DNA of 64,000 nt from Tomocerus qinae (Eukaryota > Arthropoda > Collembola > Entomobryomorpha > Tomoceridae). The stretch lies in the NCBI GenBank assembly GCA_020055645.1, contig CM034546.1, positions 42,098,001-42,162,000 on the forward strand, given 5' to 3'. Positions 1-64,000 of this stretch are shown here, piece after piece. The position numbers and the translations under genes were made by a program. Within the stretch, counting starts at the first letter, position 1. Each line of letters opens with the position of its first letter. The notes under the pieces were generated by a model, which saw only the letters and a program-made list of their open reading frames with translations, was not told the DNA's origin and ran no database searches.

Positions 1-3000
1 AATAAATCCCATGTATATTACCCTATTCAGTAATCTTTTCCAGTTCATTTTTAAACCTGACTTTTGTTCGTGGCTGGCGAAGCAGTGAGATGTGAAGAAA
101 ACGTGACTGGAGTAGAATAGGCCACCCAATTAGCTTGCTGGGTTGTCTATGGATTTTCAATCACGATTTCTTTGCAGCTCAATTCTTCGCCATCAATGAA
201 TAAGAGACCAAATAATAGGATTAAAAATGAAGTGGAAAAGATAGCTGAATATGATAATACGCGTCATTTCAAATATTTAATTTTTTAAGGTATATGGGAC
301 TTTGCTTATTTATTGGTAGGAGCGAGGTCTCTACAGACTACTGACTACAAGCACACGTGCACTGTGGTATAGTTTACAGATTGCCTCTGTGGTTACTACT
401 ACAAAAGCTTTCTCATTTAGTCTGCAACTAGTGAACCCACCTAAGGGGACAAATCTAGCACTCAAGAGAAATTCAGCAGGCCATGCATCACAGTAATAAA
501 AACAATTTCGAAATTCGAAACCATCCCATTAGGTTATTATGTTAACTTTGTAACTACAAAGTATATTTAAATTAATATACTTTTATTTTCTACAATGGTA
601 GGCAAAATTAGCTGCAGCGCCCAAATTCCTGATAAAAAGGAATTTTCTACACCAAAATAATAACTGTAGATTGTAGCATCAAATACGGAGAACAATGAAA
701 GACTCTATTTTCCAAAAAGCTCGCACAAATTTACAAAAAAGCTCCCATTGAAAATCAAAACAATTCGATTCCCCGTGGGATTTTGGAAAAACATACAAAA
801 TCCATGAGTACAACTTACGAATAAAATATTTTTAAAGAATAAATAGTGGTACCCAGTACTGTTATTTTTTAATTATACAAAAAGGTGTGCCAACTACCAA
901 AGGAATCAAGAGGGTAGTAAAAAGTAAACCCAGCTCTACTAAATAATGTTGAATAAGTTTGTTGATGTAGCAGAACCATTGAATTGGATTGAAGTTTTGA
1001 AATGCTATTTAATACGCACATTACTATCATTACGAAATGTTCCCTTTCGCTAATCATTTCTATTCGATCACCCCTCACCATTCAACCTTTTTATGTAAAT
1101 TTCTATTTCCATTTTGGTGTTATAATAATAATATGAAACGACTCATTTCGGTTGTTTAGAGGAATTGGTCTTGCGCAATTTGCTTTTTTGCTTCTAAGGT
1201 ACATGTATATATTACGTGTGCAGTTGATGGGAGGAGGAAGGTACTCAAAAGTGTTGCAGTCAGCACTTGCGTTACACATGTGGGAGTGGGCATTGCGTTA
1301 CGCAATATATGCAGGTTCATAGGATGTCCTACCACACATACATATATAGATACATAGATAGATTGGTAAGTTTTTTTCCTTCTGTGTTTATTATATAGAG
1401 ATTGTAAAATAATGTGTTAATATTTACATAACAAAGTAAATTAGTAAAAAAAATTCATCCGCCAACTGCATGTCTTTGTTGAATTTATAATAAATTTGGC
1501 TTCTGTTGCACGACTATGGCGTATAATGTACAATTTCAAAAGCGTAACAACTTACCCCTTAAGCTGAAAAATAGGATTTTGTTATCCTGTTTATTTCCTT
1601 TCAGATGGAATGGAATCCACGAAGCTGACACTTGAAATCAGTATTTACTTTTCAAACGTTTGCGTAGGAATGAATGATTATGAATAATGAAGGAAGATTT
1701 ATATAGTCATGAAATGGAACAGAGAACATGATAAATATTTTAAAGTTGAGATCTACTGCCCCACCGACGAGGAAAAGTGGGTAGCAAAATATGTTGTACA
1801 TATGTAATATAGATAAGAACGGATGTTCATTTTTATTTGCAACTTGCATACAGCTGTGCTGCATGGAAAAATAAAAAAAAGGCTTCCGAGAAAGAGATCA
1901 GAGATAGCACCGAGTAACACAAAGATATCATACATATAATAAATATACATAATTACTCGCTTACACTTTCAGTTCTGGTATTCCCAAGTATTCTGGTATG
2001 AAACTAATACTAATAAACAGGTTCTTAAAACTATAATGCTTGAAGAGTTTAATTTGCGCATTTATAATACAAAGTACATAGGCACTAAATAGGTACTTAA
2101 TACCAATATACAGAAGATACAATTCTTTCTATAGAACGTAATTTCTCTTTCCAAGTCGCAAACACATAAAACTTTGCGAGCCACAGAATGGACTATTTAC
2201 TATAAGTGGGTGAAATAGAGAATTTATAATCCATGCAACTATTACATAAGCATTGTGGAGTATATATAATTTGTTTGTGTTATTGCAAGCCAAAGTCCAA
2301 TGTTTAAGCATCATACATTATGTGTGTAAAATTCGTCAATATTCAGTTATTATCCTATACAGCCAGTATCCATGAATGCATGTATATAGTATAATATAGA
2401 CTTCATAAAGATGCTGACGAACTTTTCATACTGTATGTAGGTAATAATATGAATGATATATGATGGTATCATTCTACACCCTGAAAATCCTGATTGAACA
2501 CGTTGCATACTTATAAATCTTAATTTAAATCCTTGATATACTATATGTATAGACATGTAATTGGTGTAATACCTACTAATGCTTGGTAATCTAGTCTGGA
2601 GATAATGCAATAACGTCATCGTTGGTTTTAAGCGCAGCTGACAACAACGTTCATTCATGATTCATGAGTTCTGTCAGATATGAAAATAATTTTCACAAAC
2701 GTTTTGAAAGGTAGGTACATATCAATAGGAGTGTCACAGACTGTATAGATGTTTAGGTCCAGAATGATTCAGAAGTGGGAAATCAACCTATGGACCTACT
2801 CCTGTTACTCCTGGAATGGGATATTATGATTCGTAGAATAGTTGGATGAGTTGGATTTATAAATCAAAGTACAATTTAACTTGGTTCACATTGCCCCATT
2901 AAAACTATTAGTTGTTCCCCGATTATTTTTGCAATCTTTCTTGCGTAAGTGAAAATGGGAACCCAGTGACAAAATGTAAATGCATTTACATGTAATAATA

Positions 3001-3409
3001 ATGAAAATACAGCAGACCCATGTCAATTAATTATGAATGGAGGTCTGATATAACTTTTATTTTTATGTACAAGACAAAGTTACACTCGCACTCATACACT
3101 CAACATTATAATATTAGTAAACCTTGCTAAAACAAATTTTAGTTTATGAATTAGTCTAATGTTTGAGTTTTAAGCGTGGGAAGTGCCAAACATTTTTAAA
3201 AGCGTAAAAGTAACACAATAATTATACATTCTAATAAGTTTCAATTTTAATGCCTCAAATATTTCAAATCCACCTTTACTCGCTATTGTACATTGTACTC
3301 AATATTTTCGGTTCTCAATTCAAGATTTTGTTGTTGGGTGAAATTTGAAGTATCTAGCTGAATTTTTTATGGTCGTCAGACAATGGTCGCTGTCATGAAG
3401 GTGAAACTA
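1..3409. other. AT-rich region with no recognisable gene
   Basis: No open frame here exceeds about 100 codons and none shows a recognisable motif on either strand. I see no clear tandem or inverted repeat. It is probably intergenic DNA upstream (in plus coordinates) of the ionotropic-receptor locus. Confidence 0.5.
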
Positions 3410-5907
3410 CTACTCTCTAGAAGATGACTTGAACGCGATGACCTTATTTTTGGAACGCAATATAAACCTCAATTTACTTTTAATTTTTGTCTTAATAAAT
3501 TTCAAAGCATTAACGAAAATGTTTTTAATAAGTTTTCGATTTTCCCAAAAGAACGCTGAAAAATATGTGAGAGCAATGCAGAAAGTGATGAAAAATATGG
3601 AGGAAATATTAGAATTTAAAAATGTGACTGGTCGTGGGAGATCTCTTGTCCAGCAGGTTTTGCATTTGGTAAAATTATTTTGCCTAGAATATTCTATCCA
3701 CTTATCAAAAATGCCAGAATGATAAAGGGCAAACAGTCTTGGCCGCAGTAAAGGAGTAAGCATTGGAATTCGATCATTTTTGAAAAAAGTGTAAACAGGT
3801 AATGATAGTAAGGAATTATCCTCAGTTCCGTGATAAAGAGTTTTTGTCGGTTTATCTCCACCATTGTGTGGATTCCAGTAAGAATCATTGAGTAATCGAT
3901 GAAGTCGGGAGCTTCTGAGAATTAGTGCAGAGTTGTTACATTCTGAAATCCATTTTTGAGGAGTTGTGGAAGGAAAATCGGGAGTAATTCCGACAATTTT
4001 CCAAAGATTATCTATTAATGTCAAATGTTTAGAATAACCAATAAATGTATAGGCTTCTCGTAGATTTCCAATTCTATTTAGTATAGAGAAAGCATATTTA
4101 AAGTCAATGCTTGAATTTGTTCCATTATTAAACGCCAATTGCATTGCTGCGGTAATTGCAGTTTGATTTTTGTTTAGAAACAACCATTTTTTACTCAAAC
4201 GACCTTTGCAAAGGTCAGCCACATAAATATTACTTTTATTCTTGCAATAAAATCTTAAAATATTTATTTGCCATGTTTGACTAACTTGGAATGGAGTTAA
4301 ATCATTAATTCCTACAAACTCGCTTAAGGCGATAAACCTAGTTAGATTTGCCATTTGTTCGATAGATTCAATTCTTGTTACAGGTCGGGGTTCAACAAGG
4401 TCTGTGGTGACAATTCCTCTGTACGCGTTTGTAAGAACAATAAACATGAGCAACATCGGACCGATTATCAACTTTATCCAGAGCGTCTTCCCAGCCTTTA
4501 TCGATAAGGAGTAACTAATCTCCAATATATGCATAGCAAATCAAAATAATTGGAACGCTTTCGTCTTGTTTGAAATATATTACCCCATTAACAAATACAA
4601 TTACAGAAAACAAAGAAATTGTTATTCCTAGCCAAGCTTCAGGTTGATAGGGTCTAATATATCCATAAAACGAGAGACTTTCATCTTCCAAAACGACACA
4701 GGAGATGAAATTGTAAGAATCATCCGAGGTTCTTATTATGACAAGATTAGGATCTCTGTCAAATATTAAGTTTTCACATAAGATTTCAATGTCCACAAAA
4801 TTATTTCTGTGAGTCAATCGTTTATAACAGTCACTATTCATATAAATTATTGTAGAATTATTTAAGCTTTCGGCGATAGCAGAAGAAATCGGAAAAGAAA
4901 CACTGTCAAAATTGGCGAAATAATTTGTGAAATAGAAATTCTTCATCGGCGGCCCACAGTAATTCATATTATTGTCATCTTCAGATGTTGGGCTTAGGAC
5001 AATGGAGTTTGCAACGGTACTCTTTCCTATGAATGTTTTTATAGCCATTGCTCGCAGCTGTTGATCAAAACAATCGATTTGGGAGCATAAGAGCTCCATG
5101 CTATAGCCATATTGATTCATCCCTTCAACCACTTGTTGTGGGCAAATAAAATAGATCTCATCTTCATTTGCTATAGAAATCATAAACCAACTACCAAGGT
5201 TTTTTCCATAGAAGTCGGTAGACGTTATTTGAATTTTGGTAGTACCTCTCAAAAATAAATGAGGAACTCTCCATTATAGACTGTAGTGTCTCTTTATCCA
5301 CAATCAAGTACAATGAAGAATGTTCTGCAAAATTAAACCAATTCAGAAAATCGGCGAAACCCTCTTCTTTTCGCCAAGAAAACTCTCCCCCGTCAGTAAC
5401 CATTTCACTGATATGGTGGATTACTACTAGATCCACTAACACATTTGGATTGAAGTTTACTGCAAAGTGCACCACACAAGAAAGACGGCCTTGTAGACTA
5501 ACAGATGATATTTTGCTATAGTTGGAATTTGTCTCGATACATTTACTTCCAAATTTGTGTGCAAGAAATAACAGAGCCCAAGAATGAATTTCGGTCCCAT
5601 GCGGAATGCAATTTATTTCTTCTGCTTTTAATTCCAGGTTCGTAAATGTGTATGGAATCATAATTTCATGTAATTCTGCATTTTGCAATGCTTCCAATTC
5701 ACTTTTGAAACTATGTTTAAAAATCAGGTTGACGTAGCAATCTTTTTCCAAATTCACAATTTCTGACAGTTGCCATCCAGCAGTCAATTCAACGATAAAA
5801 AGAATTATAACCAACATACCCATCATTTTGAATTTGCAAAGTAGTGGAATAGTTTTTGAAGAGCTACGACGTTTTGTCTGTATTAACTGCATAACTTTAC
5901 AGGCCAT
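3410..5907 (-). pseudogene. Ionotropic-receptor-like gene with two frameshifts
   Basis: Three consecutive minus-strand frames together read as one divergent ionotropic receptor of about 830 residues, a ligand-gated channel family used in arthropod chemosensation. The first part (5907 to about 5191) starts at ATG and has a hydrophobic signal-like stretch (MMGMLVIILFIVELTAG). The second (about 5252 to 4515) carries the end of the ligand-binding lobe and a first membrane helix after RPYQPEAWLGI. The third (4534 to 3410) has a helix in GPMLLMFIVLTNAYRG, the second lobe ending ALYHSGIFDKWIEYSR, the last helix and a basic tail. This order (lobe, helix, helix, lobe, helix) fits the family. Adjacent frames overlap and I see no GT-AG intron that would join them. 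Each junction needs one extra base or two missing ones, near 5190-5262 and 4515-4575. Either the gene is dead or the assembly has two indels. No other disabling change was noticed. Confidence 0.7.
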
Positions 5908-14381: not shown

Positions 14382-14385
14382 AGTT

Positions 14386-14794
14386 ATCGGAAGGCAAATC
14401 CGGGTTAGACTGAAAGATGCCCGTTTCCCTGTATTCCTGACTCTGGTTCGACTCAATGCACCTAAAACTGCGAGAACTTATGATCGGGATGAGTGAAATG
14501 ACTGCACAAAATAGAGAACGACCGAATTTGGACACAGACAATAGTAGAAGTTTATTACAACGAAAAGGTGACACGATTCGATTTACTCTAAGTTCCCTAA
14601 AACCCGACGCTGACTGACGACGACGACGAGGGTTCCCAACCAACTGTGACTGACGAGGGTTCACGACCAACTGGCGAGAGAGTCTCCGTCTCTCCGAGTA
14701 TATGGAGTCTCGAAGTGGGAGGTAGGAGTTCAATTAGAATATTAGAGACGTGATGTTAATGAGGGTGATATTGGGTGGTGAGGAGCCTCCTCAA
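14386..14794. mobile_element. 409-bp insertion with 5-bp target duplication (possible solo LTR)
   Basis: The paralogous flank near 41631 is uninterrupted, whereas here 409 bp lie between two ATAGT copies (14381-14385 and 14795-14799). A 5-bp duplication fits an LTR retrotransposon. The ends (TATCGG...CTCAA) are not the usual TG...CA, so a solo LTR is only one option. A 125-codon open frame on the minus strand inside it is Arg/Ser-rich and not recognised. Confidence 0.5.
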
Positions 14795-14989
14795 ATAGTC
14801 TAGTAATTATAGGTCATATGTGTCGCGATCTAGAATAGTGAATGAACTCTACTAGATCTAGTAAGCGAGATATAAGCCTCTAAAGTCATCGCATACCATT
14901 TAACCTTTCAGAATTAAACCACAGCTAACAGTCATACAATTACCCAAAGGCCAAGAATATGACAGCAACTGATGTCCATTCCACACATA

Positions 14990-17118
14990 CAGCAAAATTT
15001 GAAAACATTTGAAATAAATAAATTCCATTGACCCTATGGGGTATATAAATATACTGAATTCAAATATGGCCACCGATATATCTTCAGAGTGACCCCATCA
15101 GATATAGAGGGGGATGTCCCTATAACAACAAATATAAAACATTGAAGTAAATACATTCTGTTGACCCTTAGGGATAAATTAATACGCTGATTTTAAATAC
15201 AGCCACCGATATATCTTTAGAGTGACCCCCATCCGATATAGGGGGTATGCCCCCACATCGTCAAATATAAAACACTCGAAATAATTAAATTTCGGTGACC
15301 CTACGGGGTAATTAACTACTATGAATTCAACTATAGCCACCGATATATCTTCAGACTGACCCCATCCGATATAGGGGGTATGCCCCCATATCGGCAAATA
15401 TAAAACATTTGAAATAAATAAATTCCGTTGACCCTACGGGATAATTAACTAAGCTGATTTCAAATATAGCCACCGATATATCCAGTGTGCATCGAACGTT
15501 ATTATAGGGTGACGAAAACAGGATGTTTTGCTCTTTTTCTGCAGCCAGTTTAGATAGGAAAACTGGGTGCAGGCCCCGGGGGCATCAGTGGCTGTATCCA
15601 TGACCACGGGGTTTTTCACAGCTAAAAGTCAACTGAATGCACCCAAACCTCGAACTGGCTGCAGAAAGAGAGCAAGACATTCTATTGTCGTCACCCTATA
15701 ACGTTCGATGCACACTGGATATATCTTTAGACTGACCCCATCCGATATAGGGGGTATGCCCCCATATCGGCAAATATAAAACATTTGAAATAAATAAATT
15801 CCGTTGACCCTACGGGATAATTAACTAAGCTGATTTCAAATATAGCCACCGATATATCTTTAGACTGACCCCATCCGATATAGGGGGTTCGCCCCCATAT
15901 CGGCAAATATAAAACATTCGAAATAAATAAATTTCGTTGACCCTCCGGGGTAATAAACTACGCTGAATTCAAATATAGCCACCGATAAATCTTTAAAATA
16001 ACCCCATCCGATATAGGGGGTTCGCCCCCATATCGGCATATATAAAACATTTGAAATAAATAAATTCCGTTGACCCTAGGGGTAATTAACTACTCTGAAT
16101 TCAACTATAGCCACCGATATATCTTCAGACTGACCCCCTCCGATATAGGGGGTATGCTCCCATATCGGCAAATATAAAACATTTGAAATAAATAAATTCT
16201 GTTGACCCCACGGGATAATTAACTAAGCTGATTTCAAATATGGCCACCGATATATCTTCAGACGGACCCCATCCGATATAGGGGGTATGCCCCCATATCG
16301 GCAAATATAAAACATTCGAAATAAATAAATTCCGTTGACCCTACGGGGTAACTCACTATGCTGAATTCAAATATAGCCACCGATATATCTTTAGACTGAC
16401 CCCATCCGATATAGGGGGTTCGCCCCCATATCGGTAAACATAAAACATTTGAAATAAATCAATTTCGTTGACCCTACGGGGTAATAAACTATGCAGAATT
16501 CAAATATAGCCACCGATAAATCTTTAAAATAACCCCATCCGATATAGGGGGTTCGCCCCCATATCGGCATATATAAAACATTTGAAATAAATAAATTCCG
16601 TTGACCCTACGGGGTAAATAACTACTCTGAATTCAACTATAGCCACCGATAAATCTTTAAAATAACCCCATCCGATATAGGGGGTTCGCCCCCACATCGG
16701 CAAATATAAAACATTCGAATCAAATAAATTCCGTTGACCCTACGGGATAATAAACTACGCTGATTTTAAATATAGCCACCGATATATCTTCAGACTGACC
16801 CCACCCGATATAGGGGGTATGCCCCCATATCGGCAAATATAAAACATTTGAAATAAATAAATTCCGTTGACCCTACGGGATAATTAAGCTGATTTCAAAT
16901 ATGGCCATCGATATATCTTCAGACGGACCCCATCCGATAGGGGGTATGCCCCCATATCGTCAAATATAAAACATTCGAAATAAATAAATTCCGTTGACCC
17001 TACAGGTTAATTAACTACGCTGAATTCAAATATAGCCACCGATATATCTTTAAAATGACCCCATACGATATAGGGGGTTCGCCCCTATATCGGCAAATAT
17101 AAAACATTTGAAATAAAT
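14990..17118 (+). repeat. 133-bp satellite array, direct orientation
   Basis: About 15 monomers, with period 133 bp measured between successive tccgatataggggg motifs at 15741, 15874 and 16007. Each monomer contains ccgatatagggggttcg or the tatg variant followed by cccccatatcgg, a strong hairpin with a four-base loop, then aaatataaaacatttgaaat, gttgaccctacggg and ccaccgatatatctt. Short open frames within it come from the repeat and are not genes. Confidence 0.9.
15482..15718. mobile_element. 237-bp MITE nested in a satellite monomer
   Basis: The element begins CCAGTGTGCATCGAACGTTA and ends with the inverse of the same sequence. Its terminal inverted repeats extend imperfectly for about 65 bp and include ctgcagccagtt. 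ATATAT flanks both sides (15476-15481, 15719-15724), and the host monomer continues across the site, so it entered after the satellite formed. Confidence 0.8.
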
Positions 17119-17760
17119 AATAGAATTAAATATGGCGTAGTTAATTACCCCGTAGGGTCAACGAAATTCATTTGTTTCGAATGTTTTATATTTGCCGGGG
17201 GCATACCCCCTATATCGGATGGGGTCAGTCTGAAGATATATCGGTGGCCATATTTAAAATAAGCGCATTTAATTACCCCGTAGGGTCAACAGAATTTATT
17301 TATTTCAAATGTTTTATATTTGCCGACATGGGGGCGTACCCCCTATATCGGATGGGGTCACTCTGAAGATACGCCGGTGTCCATGTTTGACATCAGTGTA
17401 TTTAATTACCCCGTAGGGTCCACAGAACCTAATCATTTCAAATGTTTTATATTTGCCGATATGGGGGCATACCCCCTATATCAGATGGGGTCACTCTGAA
17501 GGTAAACCGGTGTCCATATTTAAAATCAGCGTATTTAATTACCCCGTAGGGTCAACAGAAACTTACTTATTTCAAATGTTTTATATTTGTTGATATGGGG
17601 GCATACCCCCTATATCAGATGGGGTCACTCTGAAGGTACACCGGTGTCCATATTTAAAATCAGCGTATTTAATTACCCCCTAGGGTCAATAGAATTTATT
17701 TATTTCAAATGTTCAATATTTGCCGATATGGTGGCATACCCCCTACATTTGGAGGGTCCC
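17119..17760 (-). repeat. 133-bp satellite array, inverted orientation
   Basis: From 17119 the same monomer runs in reverse complement (accccgtagggtcaac, ataccccctatatcgg) for about five copies, then degrades. The head-to-head switch makes the whole array a large inverted repeat. Several copies read tatcagatgggg rather than the tatcggatgggg expected from the direct copies, and the hairpin is partly eroded. Confidence 0.85.
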
Positions 17761-18154
17761 TCTGTCTCTATAACGGCTGTCATATTTGAATTGCAATTTT
17801 GTTTCCGCCTTTTGTTTTTGAAATCATTTATTTGTTTGGTATGGAATTTCCTTATCTTCGGATAAGAAATGACAGGCTTTCGGATCCTTACTCATGTAGT
17901 GAATTATGATATCTTTAAAGATACAATATAGATTAAAATAATTGCCAAAAATCGCAGGAATTTTTTAATAATACCATGTCACCGCCATATTGTAGATTCT
18001 AAAGTGCTCTTTTTAATAGAGTTATAAACTGAAATTTCGTTTTTTTTGGAGTTCATTCAGTATTCAAAGTCGCGACACATATTATACCACAATATATCCT
18101 GTTCTGTTGAGTCAGTAAAAATTTGGGTCTTATAATAGTTTGGGAAAAATTTGA

Positions 18155-24810: not shown

Positions 24811-25920
24811 ATGACTTTGGAAGGCATTACTAATACACCGGTAACGAAAAAACGAAAAATAGACGAGATGCAGCTGGAGGACGTAGCAAAACTAGTTCAA
24901 GAACTGGGGAAAAAAATAGATAATTCTATTCAACTAGTGACGGACAGTAGTGTTGTGCAGTGGTTAAAACCACTAGTGGTCATTATGGTCATAATGGTCA
25001 AAATGGCCCGGTCAAAAAAAACTAAAAAGTGGTCAAAATGGTCAAAATGGACAAAATGCCTGTTTGGGGTTAATTGAGACCCCAATGTAGCTTTTACTGC
25101 AACAGTAAACAACAAATACAACTTTCTAAAGATTGCAGTTAAAAATGATTAGAGAGTGTCATTCTGTAGTCCGATGTTAGTAGAATAGTGTTTTATTGGT
25201 TTTAGGCCATATTTCATTCTCTAAATATTTTAAATTTCATTTGCTAGCCTAAGTAACTGTATACTGATATTTTGACCATTTTAGCCATTTTGACCATTTT
25301 GACCATTTTGACCAGTGGCCCGGTCAAAATGCAAAAAAGTGGTCAACAGTACAACACTGGTGACGGATCTGACGAATTTCACCTCAGCCCTCCAGTCTAA
25401 AATTACCTCACTGGAATCCGATGTTCAAAACTGCAATAAAAAAATTCAAGATCTCACAGCGGAAAACCGGAAGCTAATGACTGAAATGAAAGCAAAGAAT
25501 ATGATAATCCATGGTATCCAGGAAACACAAGGGGAAACATCAGCTGACATCGTCAAAACTGTGTCCTCTCTATTTAGAGAGATAAACATTAACGGAGTGC
25601 AAATTGACATTGCTCATCGAATCGGAAAAGTTAGTGGCACTGCTGTCAGACCGATCAAAATTGTGTTAACCTGCTTGAGGGACAAGAATAGACTGATGGC
25701 CGGTGCCAAAAATTTGAAAGCCAATCCAAATACTGCTGGGGTCTTCTTCAATGACGACCTTCCATTAGAAATCAGAAAAGGCCGAGGACTACTTAGAAAG
25801 ACAAGATCAGAAGCCGCAGCAAAAGGACATAAGGTTACCTTGAGAGGAGATGTGCTTATCATCGATGGAGTCGACTACATCGCCAAAAATGACGCCGTAG
25901 TCAAATCGATAGAGGCGTAG
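24811..25920 (+). pseudogene. LINE ORF1, interrupted by a MITE
   Basis: It starts at ATG 24811 (MTLEGITNTPVTKKRKIDEM) and ends at TAG 25918-25920. The two halves are separated by an inserted MITE (24945-25359) that introduces a stop at 25075. MITE plus one target duplication is 423 bp, a multiple of three, so both halves are in the same frame; without the insert the frame would be about 228 codons. The second half has a heptad-like stretch (LQSKITSLESDVQNCNKKIQ) and then an RRM-like fold start (NMIIHGIQETQGE), as in ORF1 nucleic-acid chaperones of LINEs. Function inferred: RNA binding and particle assembly. Confidence 0.8.
24945..25359. mobile_element. hAT-like MITE in LINE ORF1
   Basis: 415 bp, ends CAGTAGTGTTGT and (inverted) CAGTGTTGTACTG, flanked by an exact 8-bp duplication GTGACGGA (24937-24944, 25360-25367). 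CAGTGTTG-type ends and 8-bp duplications are typical of hAT transposons. Subterminal tandem copies of ggtcaaaat run inward from both ends in opposite orientation. The core resembles that of the MITE at 18241-18579. Confidence 0.85.
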
Positions 25921-28900
25921 GATGAAGGCAGCAACACACAATCTTCTCTCAAAAAGTCTATCTCTATTATCTTCTGGAATTCGGACGGTCTGGTTAATCA
26001 ATTCGCGTATGATAAACTAAATTTTATTTTGAATCAAAATCCTAACATTTTTTGCATTGCTGAAACTTGGTGTCTAAGTGAAAAGGCAATTAAATGTCAG
26101 CAAATTCTTCTAAAACTAAAACAGCTGTATAAAATAACTATTATCGGTGCTAAGTACAACTTCCGCGCAGGAAGAAATATGGGTGGATTTTTATTAGGTA
26201 TTAAATTGGATATAGATAATTTTGTAAATTACAAAAACAATTCTCAATACTTGGTATCGATCGAAATTGACAAAAACTATGGTATAGATAATAATTTAGT
26301 AATTAATTTTTCGTACTGTGCACCCTCAGTAGACGGAGACAACCATTTTGAAAATATTTTACAGTTACTTGAAAATAATTATCACAAATTTAGAATTTTT
26401 ATGGGTGACCTGAACGCAAGGCTGGGTTGTTCTTCCGATCTACACACAAATAGTAAAGATAAAAAGACTAATAACAGAGGTAAAAAACTTTTAGAGTGTA
26501 AGCTAAATAATTGGTATGTTTGTAATGGCAGTGTCCCGGGGGATTTGAACGGAGAATTTACTTTTGTCAATGCTAACGGAGCCAGCACAGTAGATATTTC
26601 GTTGGTGACTCCGAATGTGTTAAAAAACATAACTAATTTCACTATTCTTGATCAAAATCTCGCAGGCCACTTCCCCATACTTCTTAAAATGGAAACTGGA
26701 AAAACTGAGCCGAAGAAATTAAAGGCAGTAAGAACCAGGAGAATAAAATGGGAACCAAAGAAAGCAAAATCGTTTGAAATACAATTAAGGAACATTCATA
26801 AGCAACTGAACAAAAAGGACCCTAGTATTGATATTCTAGTCAACTCCATTTATAAAGCGGCACAAGGTTGTGGAATGAAAACATCAACTTTCAACGCGAA
26901 GGGCAACTCGTCAGCTCCCCCGTGGGCAGATCAAGAATACATAACCTCCAAGAAATCTCTATCTAATGCACTAAAAAGATTCCGGAAAGCTCATCCTGCC
27001 ACAGACTACTATGAATACCAAACAAGTAAAAATACCTTTTTAGCTAACAAAAAATGGCACAACAATCTAACTATACGTAAAAAAGCGGAATATTTTAATG
27101 AAATTCACAAAAAGATTCTAAAAGCTAGAAACTCAAAGGAATTTTGGGAAGCAATCGGCGTATTCAGACAAGGTGACAAATCAAAAATCTATGGAGACAT
27201 CACACTGGAGCAATGGCAGCTTCATTTTAAATCGGTATTCCAGAAATACTCCAACGCTCGTAATGATATAATAACATTCCCACAAAGAACTGAAGATTAT
27301 CTCGACGCACCAATCAACATGTTTGAGCTCAATCTCGGAATCAAAAAAATTGGAAATAATAAGGCAAGTGGACAGGATGGTATCCCAAATGAAGTCTGGA
27401 AAGCATTACCCAAAGAATCCAAAATGGATTTAATCGATTTATTCAACAGAGTACTTTCAACTCCAGAATCAATGCCCGAAAATTGGGGAGAAATTGTAAT
27501 TGTACCGTTATTTAAGAAAGGAAACCCGAATATGACTGCAAACTACCGCCCAATTTCCCTAATCAATACAGTAACAAAACTTTTTACTACAATAATATCG
27601 TCGAGATTAAGCACCTGGTGCGATAAACATAATAAAATCAGCGATTATCAAGCCGGCTTTAAAAAAAACACTGGGTGCGAAGATCAAATATTTATATTGA
27701 ACACACTGATACAGAAAACAATAAAAAAACCTGGAGGGAAGTTATTCGCACTTTTTATCGACATTTCTCAAGCATTTGATGGAACTTGCCAATCAACTCT
27801 TTGGCACAAGCTCTACAAGGCAGGAATTAGCTCTCAGTTCTTAGCCATGATCCAAACATTGTACTCCCACGCCAGAGCAGTGATCAGAACACCAGATGGC
27901 CTCAGTCAAGAGATTGAAATCTTCAACTCAGTGCTACAAGGCGAAATTTTATCGCCAAAATTATATACTCTTTTTATAAATGATATAATAGAGGCAATTA
28001 ACGAAACAGAAACATCGAGCATCCGCATTGGGATTGATCATATGCTTCTTTTTGCTGATGATATTGTGTGTGTAGCAAAATCGCCGATGGATATACGGAA
28101 AAAATTATTACGACTGCAAGAATACTTTGAGGAGAATAAGTTGCAATTAAATCTGGGAAAATCGAAAATAGTCATTTTTAGAAGAGGCACAAACGCACTG
28201 AAGTATAACTTTTATTGGGGATCGGACAAAATTGAAATAGTGCGAAGCTATACGTATTTGGGAGTTCCATTCCACGCCTCTGGATCTTTTAAAAGAACCA
28301 AGGATGTTTTTATTTCAAACGCTACAGCAGCCGCCAAAAAACTGATCTCTCTCAACGTGAAAAGCAAAACTAACTCATTCAGAACACAGGAGAAATTATT
28401 TAATTCCTTAGTACGGTCAGTTCTCTTTTATGCAGTGCCGGTGTGGGGAATCAACTTCATTAACGAATTCATTTCTCTCCAATTTAGATTCCTCAGGCAA
28501 GCCTTATACCTACCTAGAGAAACACCCAGATGGAAGATAGCATTAGAAACGGGAATGAGCCCCATTGACTCATTCTTACTTAATCTAATTCTTAAATTCA
28601 TTATCCGTGTCAAATCAAAACCCCCGGGTAAGCTTGTCAGAGATTGTTTTGAGGTTTGTCAAGAAAATTGTCAGGGAATTAAAAATTTTACGCCTTGGTT
28701 CCACAATCTTTGTAAGTTTCTAGAAGAAAAAAAGTGTTTGCACGTTCTAAAAGATAGACATTTAAATTTGAAAACAGTAAAACGTATTATTAATAATGAT
28801 AAGCTAAGAATTAACTCGGAAAACATTGTATTGATGAATAGTAATAGGTCTTGTAATTATAGCTCCATAAAAGCCAAAATAGGTACAGAACATTACTTAT

Positions 28901-29250
28901 GTGGAAAAATACCTTGGTCGGTGGCCAGACTCATTGCGCAAGTAAGAATGAATTTAAACTATATTACCATTGACAGAAAATCTTACTGGTTAAACTATTC
29001 TCGTATTGGTGGGTTTAAAAATTGCGATTTATGTAACCTTAATGACAATGAAGATGTTTTTCATCTCCTCTTTAAATGTCCGCATTATGCTAATGCACGA
29101 AATGGGTACATAAATTCTCTTTCAGAGGTAAATTACACGAGAAATAATTTTCTAACAATTTTCAAAAACTTAGATCCAAAAAAGGCATGTCTTCTTTATA
29201 TATTCTTTAAGCGGGCTATTAAGATAAGAAATTTCATATTAGAATATTAA
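25921..29250 (+). CDS. LINE ORF2: endonuclease and reverse transcriptase
   Basis: Open from the codon after the ORF1 TAG to TAA at 29248-29250, up to 1109 residues, in the same frame as ORF1. Apurinic-type endonuclease motifs appear in order: FWNSDGL, CIAETWC, GDLNAR and LAGHFPIL. In the last one, Gly stands where the family usually has the Asp of SDH, which may weaken activity. Reverse transcriptase motifs follow: NYRPISLINTVTK, FIDISQAFD, LQGEILSP, LFADDIV (catalytic DD present) and LNLGKSKIVIF. The end carries CDLCNLNDNEDVFH...C, a zinc-knuckle-like motif. The first in-frame ATG is at 26179, after the first two endonuclease motifs, so translation must enter by readthrough, non-AUG start or reinitiation with frameshift. 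Confidence 0.9.
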   Translation, partial: DEGSNTQSSLKKSISIIFWNSDGLVNQFAYDKLNFILNQNPNIFCIAETWCLSEKAIKCQQILLKLKQLYKITIIGAKYNFRAGRNMGGFLLGIKLDIDNFVNYKNNSQYLVSIEIDKNYGIDNNLVINFSYCAPSVDGDNHFENILQLLENNYHKFRIFMGDLNARLGCSSDLHTNSKDKKTNNRGKKLLECKLNNWYVCNGSVPGDLNGEFTFVNANGASTVDISLVTPNVLKNITNFTILDQNLAGHFPILLKMETGKTEPKKLKAVRTRRIKWEPKKAKSFEIQLRNIHKQLNKKDPSIDILVNSIYKAAQGCGMKTSTFNAKGNSSAPPWADQEYITSKKSLSNALKRFRKAHPATDYYEYQTSKNTFLANKKWHNNLTIRKKAEYFNEIHKKILKARNSKEFWEAIGVFRQGDKSKIYGDITLEQWQLHFKSVFQKYSNARNDIITFPQRTEDYLDAPINMFELNLGIKKIGNNKASGQDGIPNEVWKALPKESKMDLIDLFNRVLSTPESMPENWGEIVIVPLFKKGNPNMTANYRPISLINTVTKLFTTIISSRLSTWCDKHNKISDYQAGFKKNTGCEDQIFILNTLIQKTIKKPGGKLFALFIDISQAFDGTCQSTLWHKLYKAGISSQFLAMIQTLYSHARAVIRTPDGLSQEIEIFNSVLQGEILSPKLYTLFINDIIEAINETETSSIRIGIDHMLLFADDIVCVAKSPMDIRKKLLRLQEYFEENKLQLNLGKSKIVIFRRGTNALKYNFYWGSDKIEIVRSYTYLGVPFHASGSFKRTKDVFISNATAAAKKLISLNVKSKTNSFRTQEKLFNSLVRSVLFYAVPVWGINFINEFISLQFRFLRQALYLPRETPRWKIALETGMSPIDSFLLNLILKFIIRVKSKPPGKLVRDCFEVCQENCQGIKNFTPWFHNLCKFLEEKKCLHVLKDRHLNLKTVKRIINNDKLRINSENIVLMNSNRSCNYSSIKAKIGTEHYLCGKIPWSVARLIAQVRMNLNYITIDRKSYWLNYSRIGGFKNCDLCNLNDNEDVFHLLFKCPHYANARNGYINSLSEVNYTRNNFLTIFKNLDPKKACLLYIFFKRAIKIRNFILEY

Positions 29251-34013: not shown

Positions 34014-34602
34014 CGTCCCTTAAGGATGGAAAAAGCCTCTATCCACTTTCAGATTGGTACAGGAATAGCCTATATCCATTTTTTGTTTGACACAGGAAAA
34101 AGCCAAAATCCATTTTTTTGTTTGGTACAGGAATAAGCCTAAATCCACCTTTCGTTTGGTGCAGGAAATAGCCTCTTCCCTCTTGTATAGTTATAGGGGC
34201 GTATTGATACATGGTTAATATGGGCGGCGGAAATATTGAACTTTCATTCTTCCTTCCAGCCAGTTTAGTTTTATCCAATATCAAAATCCGATTTTGAGTC
34301 GTTAAAAATTTTGTTTTTGTCTTATTGTATAATTAGCTAAATGTTTTTAATGTTTATGTACATTATAGCATGATATATTTCAAGTATCAACATAAAAATA
34401 ATAAATACTTCATTTCGTCAACTTGTTTATTCTTACTGTGCCCCGACAACTTTACGTAAGGCTGTAAGAGGACAGACGCTATTTCCTGCACCAAACGAAA
34501 ATTGGATATAGGCTTATTCCTGTACCAAACAAAAAATGGATTTAGGCTTTTTCCTGTACCAATCTGAAAGTGGATACAGGCTTATTCTATCCTTAAGGGA
34601 CG
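34014..34602. mobile_element. 589-bp foldback element downstream of receptor D
   Basis: It starts CGTCCCTTAAGGAT and ends with the inverse. ATAT is duplicated (34010-34013, 34603-34606), and the empty site is intact after receptor B near 22628 (gagatatgtatag). The terminal inverted repeats reach about 170 bp each and are built from imperfect tandem units of about 35-45 bp (aagcct, atccattttttgtttggtac, aggaa). A unique AT-rich core of about 250 bp has no gene. Confidence 0.8.
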
Positions 34603-40722: not shown

Positions 40723-41650
40723 AAGTAGTTTATTTAATGAGATATGTATAGTTTTTTTCGCAACATGTATCTAAATGCTTAAATATCGAAGTCCATTAAA
40801 CTTAAAACGTATTGGCCTAAAAAATATAGCAGTTAGATAAAACTATTGTTATAGATTGACTTGTTTTAAATGTATGCTTTTGGAGTGACTGCCTGGAATG
40901 TAATCACAAATATTATTGAAATGGGATATTAAATATTATAGTGATCGGCTGAGGGCCGAAGTATGTGTTTTCTTTTATATCGATACAGTAAATGGAATTC
41001 TACTTCATGCTTTGTATATCACATTCCACTTACTACGTGTGTATGCAGGACAGTTTTGTGGAATTCAAGTATGCTTTACTTCGCATACAAAATGTATAGT
41101 TTCATGATGAAGGGTCAAAAGGTACAACATACAGTGTGTAATAAAGATACGCGTGGCCACATGTAATCTATGCATGAGCAGTTCTGGTTAGAGTCCCTGT
41201 TTATTGTGTTGCAGGACGAGAGTAAAATAGTAGTACCGTAGTTTTTTAATAATCATTACATATTTACACATACTGTAGTGTATGGTTGTCGCCTGTCTAG
41301 ACAAACGACTAATTTAGGTGAAGAATCGTAGTTACCACCAACCAAAAGTTTTAACCTAATTGAGACCTAAAAAATTAACAAGGGCTTTTCAAAAAACCGC
41401 TTTTTTGAATTAAGGCAAACTTAGAAGTTTTTCCGAAGCAGTAACTTTGACTTTTGCAACAAATTGGCCTTTGAACATTTAGAAGAAATTGATAAGAATG
41501 TTTGATCAAAATTATCCTACAAAATAAAGGAACTGTTATGAACACAAACGCATAGTTTTCATATCTAATAACCCAAGCTTCCTGACTGAAGAAAGGAGTG
41601 GACTTTAATATTTTGGTCAAAATAATAATACAGTCCAGTAATTATAGGTC
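40723..41650 (+). repeat. Receptor 3'-flank module of the lost locus
   Basis: Landmarks match the flanks after A and B: the ccgagggccgaagtatg block near 40950 and tcgtagttaccacc near 41328. The junction ggtcattatacc at 41648 is the uninterrupted form of the site occupied by the 3.26-kb element at 14818-18080, and 41631-41645 is the empty form of the 14386 insertion. Confidence 0.65.
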
Positions 41651-41754
41651 ATTATACCACAATATATCTTGTTTTGCTGGGTCAGTAAAAATCTCTGTTA
41701 TAATAGTATGGGAAAAATTGTAATTATTATATAATCTAATCATACCTTAAACTC

Positions 41755-46629: not shown

Positions 46630-47494
46630 GTCATTTATTTAATGAGATATGTATAGTTTTATTTGTTTTATTTCGCAAAATGTATCTAAATGCTTAAATA
46701 TCGAAGCCCGTTACTTAAAACGTGTTTTCCGAACCAATATATTAGTTAGGTAAAACTATTGCAATAGATTGACTTGTTATATATATATTATGCTTTTGAA
46801 GTGACTGGAATGTAACCACATATATTATTGAAATGGGCTATTAAATATTTTAGTTCTCTGCCCAGGTATGTATTTTTCTTTGCATAAAGTAAATGGAATG
46901 ATGAGCGGTATATAAAGGTACGACATGGTGTGTGTATAATGATAATAATGTGTGCCCACAGGTTAGCCGTGCATGAGTAGTCCTGGTTAGAGTCCTACTT
47001 TACTGAGTAGCAGGACGAGAGTAGAATAACCTTCCAACTGCACATTTCCAATAATCATTACATATCTACACAGACTGTTATGTATGATTGCCGACTAGCG
47101 ACTGCTTGGTCAGCGACTAATTTAAATAGGAGTCAGAGTCAAAGCCTTAGCTACCACCACAAGTTTCAATTTAGTTGAAACCTAAAAAACGCATAAAGAC
47201 TTTTCAAAAAAATGGCTAAATTTAGAATTTTGGAAAATTTTACGAAGCAAAAACTGTAAATTTGACAACAAATTGATCTTTGAACTTCTGGAGAAAATTA
47301 ATAAGAGTGTCTGTAACAGTAGGAAGACTTTAATATTTAGGTGAAAATGATAATGTAGTACGAACAGTAATTTTGGTTATTTAAACCACAATAGGTGCAT
47401 TAGGTTCTGTTGGGTCATTAAAATTCTGTGTATTATAATAGTTTGGGGAAAAATGTGATCTTATATATAATCTATATAATATATATAATCTTAT
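46630..47494. other. Spacer between receptor F and the monooxygenase
   Basis: Contains the receptor 3'-flank module (tagctaccaccacaag near 47148, shared with 14060 and 41330). It must hold the 3' ends of both convergent transcripts, but no single poly(A) signal stands out. Confidence 0.5.
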
Positions 47495-49624
47495 TCATAA
47501 AGATTTGAACTCGAAGTTTGAAAAATCAATCTTTCTCGTTTGTCTCCAGTATTCAATAGCACTCAGCGGCCACAAAGTTGTTATCTGCCCATGCTTATCA
47601 GCATACCATGACCCACATTGTGTCGTACCCCACGTAGTGCTAAATAAACATCCATCTTTTAATGAATAAAATGTTATTTGATATCTTTTAAAAAGACATG
47701 TTGACATACCTTTTCATTTTTTCTTTCAATGTATTCATAAACTCTTTTTCAGCCAATGGCTTTAAACGTACATATCGAGCATTTCTTTTTATCATTTCCT
47801 TGATTATTTTCATGCTAACATTTGTTTGACATTCTATTTGGAATATTACTGAATTATGTCCAAGACCCTGTGGAATACAAAAATCAGTTTAATAAATTAA
47901 TCTAATTCCTAAAGTGATAAAGGGATAAGTAATAATAAGTTACAGTATTGGGCCCCAGAAGGTGTAGCATATTAGGTGAACTACTTTCAACAATTCCATA
48001 ATACATCTGAGGTCCATTATCCTTCCACGATTTATGAATATCTTTGCCGTCTATGCCATACATTTTCAATGGAGCGAAATAATCTTGAATGCAAAAACCA
48101 GTAGCAAGGATCAATACCTTAAAACATTTACATATTTGCGTGTTGGATTACTAAAATTAATTTCAAACTAAAATTGAGATCTAACACTAAAACTTTTTGA
48201 ATATTCAAGTTTAAATTTTTCTAAAATTATAACTTTAAAATTTTTCTTACCTCTGCTTCTTCAGATTGCCTATCTTTGGTGTAAATTGTTTTACCAACTA
48301 TTTTATCAATGTGAGCAGTATGTAACTTCACTTTAGGCAAAACCATTGCGGGGTAGTAGTCATTAGACGATAAGACCCTTTTACATCCGTAGGAATACTG
48401 AGGAGTTAAAGCTTTTCGTATTTTTGAATTATTTGGCATTTCTGTTTTCATTTTGTGTCGGGACACTTTATAAGCTAAAAGTACATCATTAATTATTAAG
48501 ATAATAATATTTTGTTTCTCGGATTTAAAACATTCAGAGTCAAAATAAGTTACCAATATTCCGAAGAAATGAATTAGGTTTAAGAGATGTATAAAACAGT
48601 TCACGATAGAGAAATAAAAAGCATCGAAAGAAGTAGAGTAGAAACGGAATGTTTGCGAACATCCATTTTCCAGTTTTAGAAATCTCATATTGAAATCTTG
48701 GCAAAATGTACGGAGGTTTCCTTTGATAAACATGAAGCTCTTTGACTTCGTCAACAATATTAGGAATTATTTGAATTGCAGACGCTCCACTTCCAATGAT
48801 AGCTACCTTTTTGTTTTTTAATGATATACTGTGGTCCCATTCTGCGGAATGAATACGAGGCCCTTGAAATGACATAAATTCTTGGGGAATGTTAGGAACC
48901 CGAAGTCCGCCGATTCCGTTGATTCTGTTAAATGTACAATAATGTCAAAAGATGTCTAAAATTATACTAAATTATTTTTTTCTTACAAAATGTCAAATGT
49001 TCTTATTTTTTCCTTCGCATCAGGTTTTTTAATATCCAAAGTGACAACAACCCATTTCCATCTACTTTCATCCCAACTCACTTTTTTCACCTGGGTATTG
49101 AATTTCGTTCGAGAATATATATTATACTTTTTCGCCAAGTTTTTAAAGTATTCCCATATTTCTTTTTGAGGTGGATATAAACTAGACCAGTCTGAAATTT
49201 CAAAAAGCATTTTTATGGTCGCTATTCAATGTAAAAACATTTCCTATGAACACAGAAACTTATTGTAAATGTATAGTTGCTATACATATAATTGGAATAG
49301 AAATTACTAGGATTTGGTTCGAAGGAGAAACTATACAAATGGCTCTCAACATCACAGCCGCAACCCTTATACGTGTTAGTTAGCCATGTCCCTCCGACAT
49401 CTGCGTTGCTATCGAATAGTGTGAAGGAATGTAATCCTAGCTGTTTTTGAAGTTGAATTGCTGCACAAATTCCGGACACTCTAAAATTGTATATGGAAGA
49501 ATACAAAATGATTTGATGTAATAATTTGTACAAATTGCGTTAAATTAAAATATGGTTTCTAATACCAACTAAATACTTACCCAGCTCCGATTATTCCAAT
49601 TTCTGGTTTTTTATAATGATTCAT
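47495..49624 (-). CDS. Baeyer-Villiger-type flavin monooxygenase
   Basis: Eight exons on the minus strand (49581-49624, 49308-49480, 48987-49191, 48554-48924, 48251-48474, 47944-48117, 47710-47867, 47495-47639) splice at GT-AG sites with consistent phases to 497 residues and TGA. The N terminus has the FAD-binding Rossmann motif (EIGIIGAGVSGICAAIQL), then GGTWLTNTYKG and SHLYSFSFEPNPNWSSLYPP. The Baeyer-Villiger fingerprint FxGxxxHxxxWD is present as FQGPRIHSAEWD. The NADPH-binding motif is IIGSGASA, followed by LTPQYSYGCKRVL, ILATGF, LLGPNTGLGHNS and a C-terminal CGSWYADKHGQITTLWP. Length and motif order fit class B flavoprotein monooxygenases that insert oxygen next to a ketone using NADPH and O2. 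Substrate unknown. One oddity is YKG where the family usually has YPG. No lesion is seen. Such enzymes are commonest in bacteria and fungi, so old horizontal gain is possible. Confidence 0.9.
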
Positions 49625-63184: not shown

Positions 63185-64000
63185 ATTATTTAAAATGATG
63201 TGGTTATTTAAAATTATGTATTATATCCATATAATATTAATCGTCTGCTTAATATTACAAGGTAACAAGCCATTTTATCATGGCTGCTACAAAGTAACAA
63301 ACCATTTTATCATGACTGAGACAAAGTAACAAGCCATTTTATCATGGCAGCGACAAGGTAACAAACCACATCGCTTGATATAGTGGTTTGTTACCTTGTC
63401 GCTGCCATGATAAAATGGCTTGTTACTTTGTCTCAGTCATGATAAAATGGTTTGTTACTTTGTAGCAGCCATGATAAAATGGCTTGTTACCTTGTAATAT
63501 TAAGCAGACGTAATGATGATACAATGAAAATCATGCGCTGATGAAAGGACTTCAAACATTTACTTTGTTTAGTTAAATGATGTTGAATTTGGTTCACTGT
63601 TATTATGTTGATTCGATAAGTATTGTATTTTGTTCCCCGTCCATAGAATATTGTGTAACAATGCAGCAAGCAATTTTTTTAACATTTTAATCTGTTACTT
63701 TTCATACTTTTTTAATGCATAATGCATACTCATGATGATCTACCGTCCCCATTAAGGGGTTACCCATTTCCCGTTCGGAGAACGGGCCTATTACTAGTTT
63801 AAAATGATGTGGTAATTTAAAATTATGTATTATATCCATATAATATTAATGATGATACAATGAAAATCATGCGCTAATGAAAGGATTTCAAACATTTACT
63901 TTGTTTAGTTAAATGATGTTGGATTTGGTTCACTGTTATTATGTTCATTCGATAAGTATTGTATTTTGTTCCCCGTCCATAGAATATTGTGTAACAATGC
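63185..64000. repeat. Direct duplication containing a foldback insertion
   Basis: The sequence ttaaaattatgtattatatc ... aatgcagcaagc occurs from 63200 to 63690 and again from 63815 to beyond the window end. A more diverged third copy lies at about 61545-61700. The first copy is interrupted by the palindrome at 63242-63510, the second is not. Confidence 0.8.
63242..63510. mobile_element. 269-bp near-perfect palindrome (foldback element)
   Basis: Two 128-bp arms that I read as exact reverse complements flank a 13-bp spacer (atcgcttgatata). Each arm begins cgtctgcttaatattacaag and holds three imperfect tandem units of about 36 bp (gtaacaaRccattttatcat). TAAT is duplicated on both sides, and the empty site attaatgatgatacaatg is present near 63848 in the neighbouring duplicate. 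No coding capacity. Confidence 0.9.

Follow-up and report, generated by a model that had tools for sequence, protein, structure and literature searches.

A block of 133-bp tandem repeats in the genome of Tomocerus qinae is, with a probability that we put at about 85%, a non-autonomous copy of a foldback-type cut-and-paste DNA transposon, whose full form encodes a DUF7869 protein that is most likely the transposase. What was initially described as a 133-bp satellite forms the two mirror-image arms of the transposon. The repeat flanks the coding interior of full-size copies and also a diverged gene, an arrangement that identifies it as the arms of a foldback transposon. The ends, arms, target site duplications (TSDs), target preference, sister copies, full-size copies with an intact open reading frame (ORF) and a diverged homologue with arms of the same kind were each observed in the assembly.

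The window element and its insertion site

In the window (the whole stretch of 64,000 nucleotides that was analysed), the element is a single insertion of 3,261 bp at 14819-18079, its termini being set by comparison of 26 complete copies. The original prediction of one insertion bounded by inverted ends of about 32 bp at 14818..18080 was borne out, with ends of about 31 bp and these revised limits. The ends read TGTGTCG...CGACACA; 30 of 34 bases match in an end-to-end inverted alignment that includes the adjoining AT at each end, and blastn paired 14818-14849 with 18080-18049 at 87.5%.

The left TSD, TA at 14817..14818, is a W-W dinucleotide, and 24 of the 26 complete copies have a matching W-W pair in this place. 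It is followed on the plus strand by the left terminal inverted repeat (TIR; 14819..14849), which starts TGTGTCGCGA and was defined by end alignments, and by a non-repeated left end region (14850..14994, plus strand) matched, wholly or partly, in all 20 of the loci fetched first, at 95-100% in L009-L016 and at 82-85% in L017-L028. Repeat mapping with a monomer query then placed a direct arm of about 15 monomers at 14995..17124 (plus strand) and an inverted arm of about five from 17125 to approximately 17780 (minus strand), in agreement with the order and numbers first proposed; a stricter count gives 14 and 5. Tandem Repeats Finder detected the 133-bp period at 15002-15482, 15718-17120 and 17135-17745; the monomer query matched inverted copies as far as about 17760. 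Comparison with the genome copies gave the right non-repeated end region (17781..18048, plus strand), and end alignments gave the right TIR (18049..18079, minus strand), which finishes TCGCGACACA. The right TSD is TA at 18080..18081; comparison of the 26 copies replaced the previous assignments of AT or 0 bp, derived from a single empty site.

The two arms adjoin directly, without a coding interior between them. Pairwise identity of the direct monomers ranges from 76 to 99% (mean 87.7%) and is lowest toward the outer edge; the mean is 84.0% for the inverted monomers and 82.9% for one arm against the other. The rest of the window gave no monomer match at E 0.01. The direct array is interrupted at 15483..15717 by a nested MITE of 235 bp, presumably hAT-like, with CAGTG...CACTG ends and an 8-bp TSD, GATATATC. 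The same MITE copy is found in full length at two other loci, L009 and L010.

The flanks of the element are part of a group of duplicated segments, the left one matching 40.9-41.6 kb at 77% and the right one 41.65-42.9 kb at 71-84%. Joined together, they align straight through position 41648, which confirms the uninterrupted site that had been reported there. Flank alignment placed this paralogous site at 41632..41680 (plus strand), and a second one, also without the element and contiguous across the site, at 47326..47587 (plus strand). The left flank also contains another insertion, of about 410 bp (14385-14794), which the 41.6-kb paralogue lacks; because of it, the left match to that site covers some 21 bp next to the element before breaking off, and starts again at 14384. 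This insertion is bordered by a 5-bp ATAGT repeat, and the paralogue has ACAGT.

A rival origin, in which a local array of tandem repeats at 14.8 kb was duplicated in inverted orientation and the 41.6-kb site is a deletion, would be in keeping with the imperfect fit of both paralogues to the predicted pre-insertion string. Neither matches it exactly: the 41.6-kb site is 2 bp shorter, and the 47.3-kb site lacks one base and carries substitutions, all in AT-rich sequence. However, since the 47.3-kb paralogue is likewise without the element, insertion at 14.8 kb is likelier than deletion at 41.6 kb, and further copies bounded by these ends, including three with 99% identity or more, occupy other sites and have TSDs of their own. 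The deletion was rejected on these two grounds, and we consider the local duplication next to impossible.

Other features were noted in the window. A LINE-like retrotransposon (25312-29247) carries two ORFs, the first of 202 aa and the second of 1109 aa; the second matches the reverse transcriptase family RVT_1 (1.2e-28), with endonuclease matches under the cut-off. A membrane-protein-like gene is repeated over about 12000-47700, with similar ORFs near 12.1, 21.2, 32.6, 37.0 and 45.2 kb; three of its exon ORFs gave no Pfam match, and these genes may be chemoreceptor-like. Finally, short tandem arrays with 34-bp and 32-bp units occur in pairs (34028-34174 with 34483-34587, and 63257-63368 with 63376-63495); their consensus units resemble reverse complements, and they are perhaps other small foldback elements.

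Dispersed copies and their target site

The 334-Mb assembly, in which the window occupies C1:42098001-42162000, was searched with a two-monomer query, and 40 of 96 candidate places were scored. This search gave at least 453 matches and, among the matches listed, at least 38 clusters besides the window. We fetched 28 of these clusters, the 20 strongest and then eight more, mostly with several listed matches, leaving out 10; the fetched loci represent the stronger monomer matches and not a random sample. Both ends were present at 25 of the 28, so that the repeat is flanked by these ends at other loci too, and there are 26 complete elements with that of the window. Among the first 20 loci (L009-L028), the left end was matched in all and the right end in 17. 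The right ends of L015 and L016 appeared once the stretches were extended, and L028 is the only one of the 20 without it. Six of the further eight loci have both ends, L034 has a partial left end only and L041 a right end only. Monomers occur in both orientations at 28 of the 29 loci (the fetched loci and the window), the exception being L034. The complete non-autonomous copies have 5-24 monomers in the direct arm and 1-11 in the inverted arm.

Several copies are close sisters of the window element. L009 (C1:58.63 Mb), on the same contig at a distance of 16.5 Mb, shares 99.85% of 3,261 aligned bases with it, nested MITE included. L010 (C2:71.49 Mb) is 99.29% identical, keeps the nested MITE and has a further 692-bp insertion. 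In L011 (C1:113.80 Mb), identity reaches 99.89% over 1,828 bases, but two pieces of the array, of 774 and 659 bp, are missing; by arithmetic, these gaps correspond to approximately whole numbers of monomers after subtraction of the MITE. One arm junction is common to the window element, L009, L010 and L011, and another, located at the monomer palindrome, is common to 10 of the 11 loci L017-L027 (all except L026). These shared junctions suggest that each short lineage was founded by a single arm-joining event.

The copies fall into two subfamilies. The end regions are 95-100% identical to those of the window element in L009-L016 and about 78-85% in L017-L028, whereas the monomer consensus is 93.9-95.5% alike between the subfamilies. 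This difference could reflect either selective constraint on the monomer or sequence exchange among elements.

Long monomer arrays outside mobile elements were found neither among the matches listed, which fall in short dispersed clusters, nor at the fetched loci, where the longest arms, of 27 monomers, lie within full-size elements. In these data, the seeding of satellite arrays put forward in the original prediction was not seen. What comes closest to a free array at the fetched loci is L034 (C1:73148300-73154300, 1618-4021). It consists of a single direct arm (18 monomers) with only part of a left end and without a right arm, and may represent either an intermediate on the way to a free array or what is left of an element.

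The mobility of the family, anticipated in the original prediction, is supported by the target sites. A matching 2-bp dinucleotide adjoins TGTG/CACA in 24 of the 26 complete copies (all except L014 and L020): TA in 13, AA in five, AT in four and TT in two. Unrelated left and right pairs match in 219 of 650 combinations, against which 24 of 26 has a binomial P of 8e-10. When TSD lengths of 1-5 were counted over the 26 copies, 24 matched at 2 bp, none at 3, one at 4 and none at 5. The AA/AA and TT/TT cases indicate that the dinucleotides are direct repeats. The base preceding the duplication is A in 24 of the 26 copies and the base following it is T in 25; a weaker symmetric preference is seen four bases further out (T in 18 of 26, A in 19 of 26). 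We read A|WW|T with a 2-bp duplication as the target signature of a transposase.

Full-size copies and the DUF7869 gene

Two of the complete elements, L015 and L016, are full-size, with 12,433 and 12,298 bp between their TSDs. Both have the same ends and, in order, a direct arm of 14 and 13 monomers, respectively, a shared interior of 6,556 bp, 27 inverted monomers and the right end. They are 99.26% identical over 12,125 aligned positions, and the homology stops within a few bases of the TIRs; their flanks are unrelated, and each site reads TA...TA.

The only long ORF of the interior, of 748 aa, is intact in both copies with no difference between them. The 748 aa refer to the length of the ORF, whose first Met is at residue 96. 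The protein matches DUF7869 (PF25273) with an E value of 1.5e-13, the only Pfam family listed for it that passes the cut-off. A PDB search returned one match at chance level (E 0.71), NCBIfam two adhesin matches to an acidic stretch, far under the cut-off, and PHROGs none; three pattern matches were obtained in viral contigs, none of them a relative. Four small ORFs of the interior were also scanned and gave no Pfam match.

The arms of the window element could be compared with those of a full-size copy, monomer by monomer. The two outermost left monomers match their positional counterparts at 96% and 91%, and the outermost right monomer at 92%, each being the top value of its row, whereas the inner monomers show no clear register. 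This suggests that the outer monomers keep their place and the inner ones turn over.

The genome was also searched with the DUF7869 protein (60 of 88 candidate places scored), which gave at least 51 matches. Two of them are the identical intact ORFs of the full-size copies. The others include an ORF without stops at C1:18.41 Mb (52% identity), a 52% copy with a stop and an adjoining 36% piece at C2:42.87 Mb, pieces of 43-78% at C1:5.33, 8.94, 37.90 and 40.23 Mb, and 36 distant matches of 26-36%. The gene at C1:18.41 Mb has at least 15 direct monomers of period 133 upstream, reaching the edge of the fetched stretch, and 15 inverted 133-bp monomers downstream. In an alignment of 126 positions, the consensus of these monomers agrees with that of the window family at 97, and the G5/C5 palindrome is conserved, as are the CCCTACGGGG and GAATTCAAATAT blocks.

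These data bear on the idea that the satellite was captured as cargo by an unrelated MITE-like element, the ends and the repeats having independent histories. The monomers are more alike than the ends between subfamilies, as if repeats had moved between elements, which would suit such a capture. However, the arms lie on both sides of the coding interior in both full-size copies and also surround a gene encoding a protein that has diverged to 52%, the outermost monomers have kept positional homology, and there is no long free array among the matches listed or at the fetched loci. We therefore regard independent capture as very unlikely. The suggestion that the element carries a satellite was accordingly not upheld: the repeats are the arms of a transposon.

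A distant relative of the gene resides in another element. L044 and L045 are two copies, 99.7% identical to each other, of one 2,490-bp TIR element whose inverted ends measure about 41 bp; each site reads AAT|TGAG...CTCA|ATT, where a 4-bp TSD, AATT, fits as well as a 2-bp AT. Its longest ORF, of 472 aa, is a distant DUF7869 match (E 1.2e-11), and a further ORF of 178-224 aa lies upstream. This element, with its similar target, is evidence for a transposase role of DUF7869 that does not depend on the repeats. Alignment of the 748-aa and 472-aa proteins pairs D378, D457 and D499 with D166, D243 and D284, and these three aspartates may be catalytic. At L045 (about 1687-1717 and 4199-4229), the element appears to lie among local tandem repeats with a unit of about 27 bp, of which a neighbouring one shows uninterrupted TAATTAATGAG.

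The DUF7869 gene might instead be cargo or a helper, the foldback element being moved by a transposase encoded elsewhere. Because the ORF was seen in only two of the 26 complete elements with these ends, captured cargo retains a small probability, and the interior does contain the other small ORFs. This alternative is nevertheless unlikely, given that the DUF7869 ORF is the only long one of the interior, that a diverged relative sits between arms of the same kind and that, in a small TIR element with a like target, the longest ORF encodes a distant relative. Thus, judging from sequence comparisons, the DUF7869 protein is most likely the transposase.

Proposed mechanism and known foldback elements

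A complete element would comprise short TIRs, long opposed arms of 133-bp monomers and the DUF7869-coding interior. The DUF7869 protein most likely binds the ends, and perhaps also the palindromes within the monomers, excises the element and inserts it at A|WW|T, duplicating the two central bases. Loss of the interior would join the two arms and produce the direct-then-inverted block of the short copies; the shortened element, which retains both ends, would be moved in trans by the DUF7869 protein. The monomers, with the G5/C5 palindrome in their consensus, probably act as repeated transposase-binding sites, and unequal exchange or replication slippage may add or remove them in roughly whole units. 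More tentatively, an unrecognised superfamily of eukaryotic DNA transposons may use DUF7869 proteins as its transposases, its members having TG...CA termini and duplicating 2 bp within A|WW|T. The same reading would make the repeats a conserved working part and not an accident, since one lineage keeps 133-bp arms though its transposase has diverged to 52%.

Assignment to the known superfamilies was considered. Tc1/mariner, which has a strict TA target, was rejected because the TSD is AA, AT or TT in 11 of 24 copies. Galileo and the P superfamily, where TSDs of 8 bp also occur, were rejected on the 2-bp TSD and because no THAP or P-type domain was matched in the 748-aa protein. The 8-10-bp TSD of Mutator, FB-NOF and Tetris does not agree with 24 of 26 copies matching at 2 bp, and no Mutator family is among the Pfam matches of the 748-aa protein. 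ISL2EU was rejected on TSD and termini, and the 748-aa ORF and the four small ORFs gave no Pfam match to THAP-DDE or YqaJ.

Foldback elements are already known, and the likeness to them drawn in the original prediction is apt: the family has inverted arms with internal tandem repeats, TSDs and dispersed copies. Judged against open-access papers and not Repbase or Dfam, the probable DUF7869 transposase and the A|WW|T target look new. DUF7869 was not found in the open-access papers searched, nor was any paper joining Collembola, transposable elements and foldback, and no title among those listed is recognisable as this family. A testable function, that of a transposase, is proposed for a domain of no assigned function.

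According to PMC4482050, ISL2EU (PHIS superfamily) has a 2-bp TSD within an A|AT|T target and termini that usually start GG, and most autonomous candidates encode a DDE/HTH/THAP transposase together with a YqaJ protein. Its target is close to A|WW|T but not the same (here AT in 4 of 24 and TA in 13 of 24); unlike ISL2EU, the termini here are TG...CA, of the TGTGTCG type, and the scanned ORFs match DUF7869 or nothing. HINE/Pearl elements, as portrayed in PMC7492417, are non-autonomous Helentrons of oysters that likewise bear dispersed satellite-like arrays inside mobile elements. They are of Helitron type: two modules enclose a central array, and the 3′ end carries a palindrome. The present family differs in having TIRs, a TSD and two opposed arms.

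For Galileo (P superfamily), PMC3573991 describes long TIRs of changing length, internally repetitive in some subfamilies, and non-autonomous two-TIR copies, both features that resemble ours, along with a 7-bp TSD and a P-type transposase with a THAP domain. Secondary transposase-binding sites are reported for its repeated TIRs (PMC4079207, PMC3573991).

Tetris, a foldback transposon of Drosophila virilis, has according to PMC4079207 long TIRs holding tandem repeats of about 220 bp and copies without conserved ORFs, and is proposed as a source of satellite arrays. Long tandem-repeat TIRs and copies without conserved ORFs are common to both families. Tetris differs by its TSDs of 8-10 bp, for which its authors suggested Mutator, and no autonomous copy is reported there; here, the TSD is 2 bp in A|WW|T, the repeats are of 133 bp and full-size copies carry the DUF7869 gene. 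In contrast to Tetris, for which its authors found no autonomous partner (PMC4079207), a single genome here holds short array-bearing copies, near-identical sisters and intact full-size copies, so that the formation of tandem arms, their change in length, their homogenisation and their spread can be followed directly.
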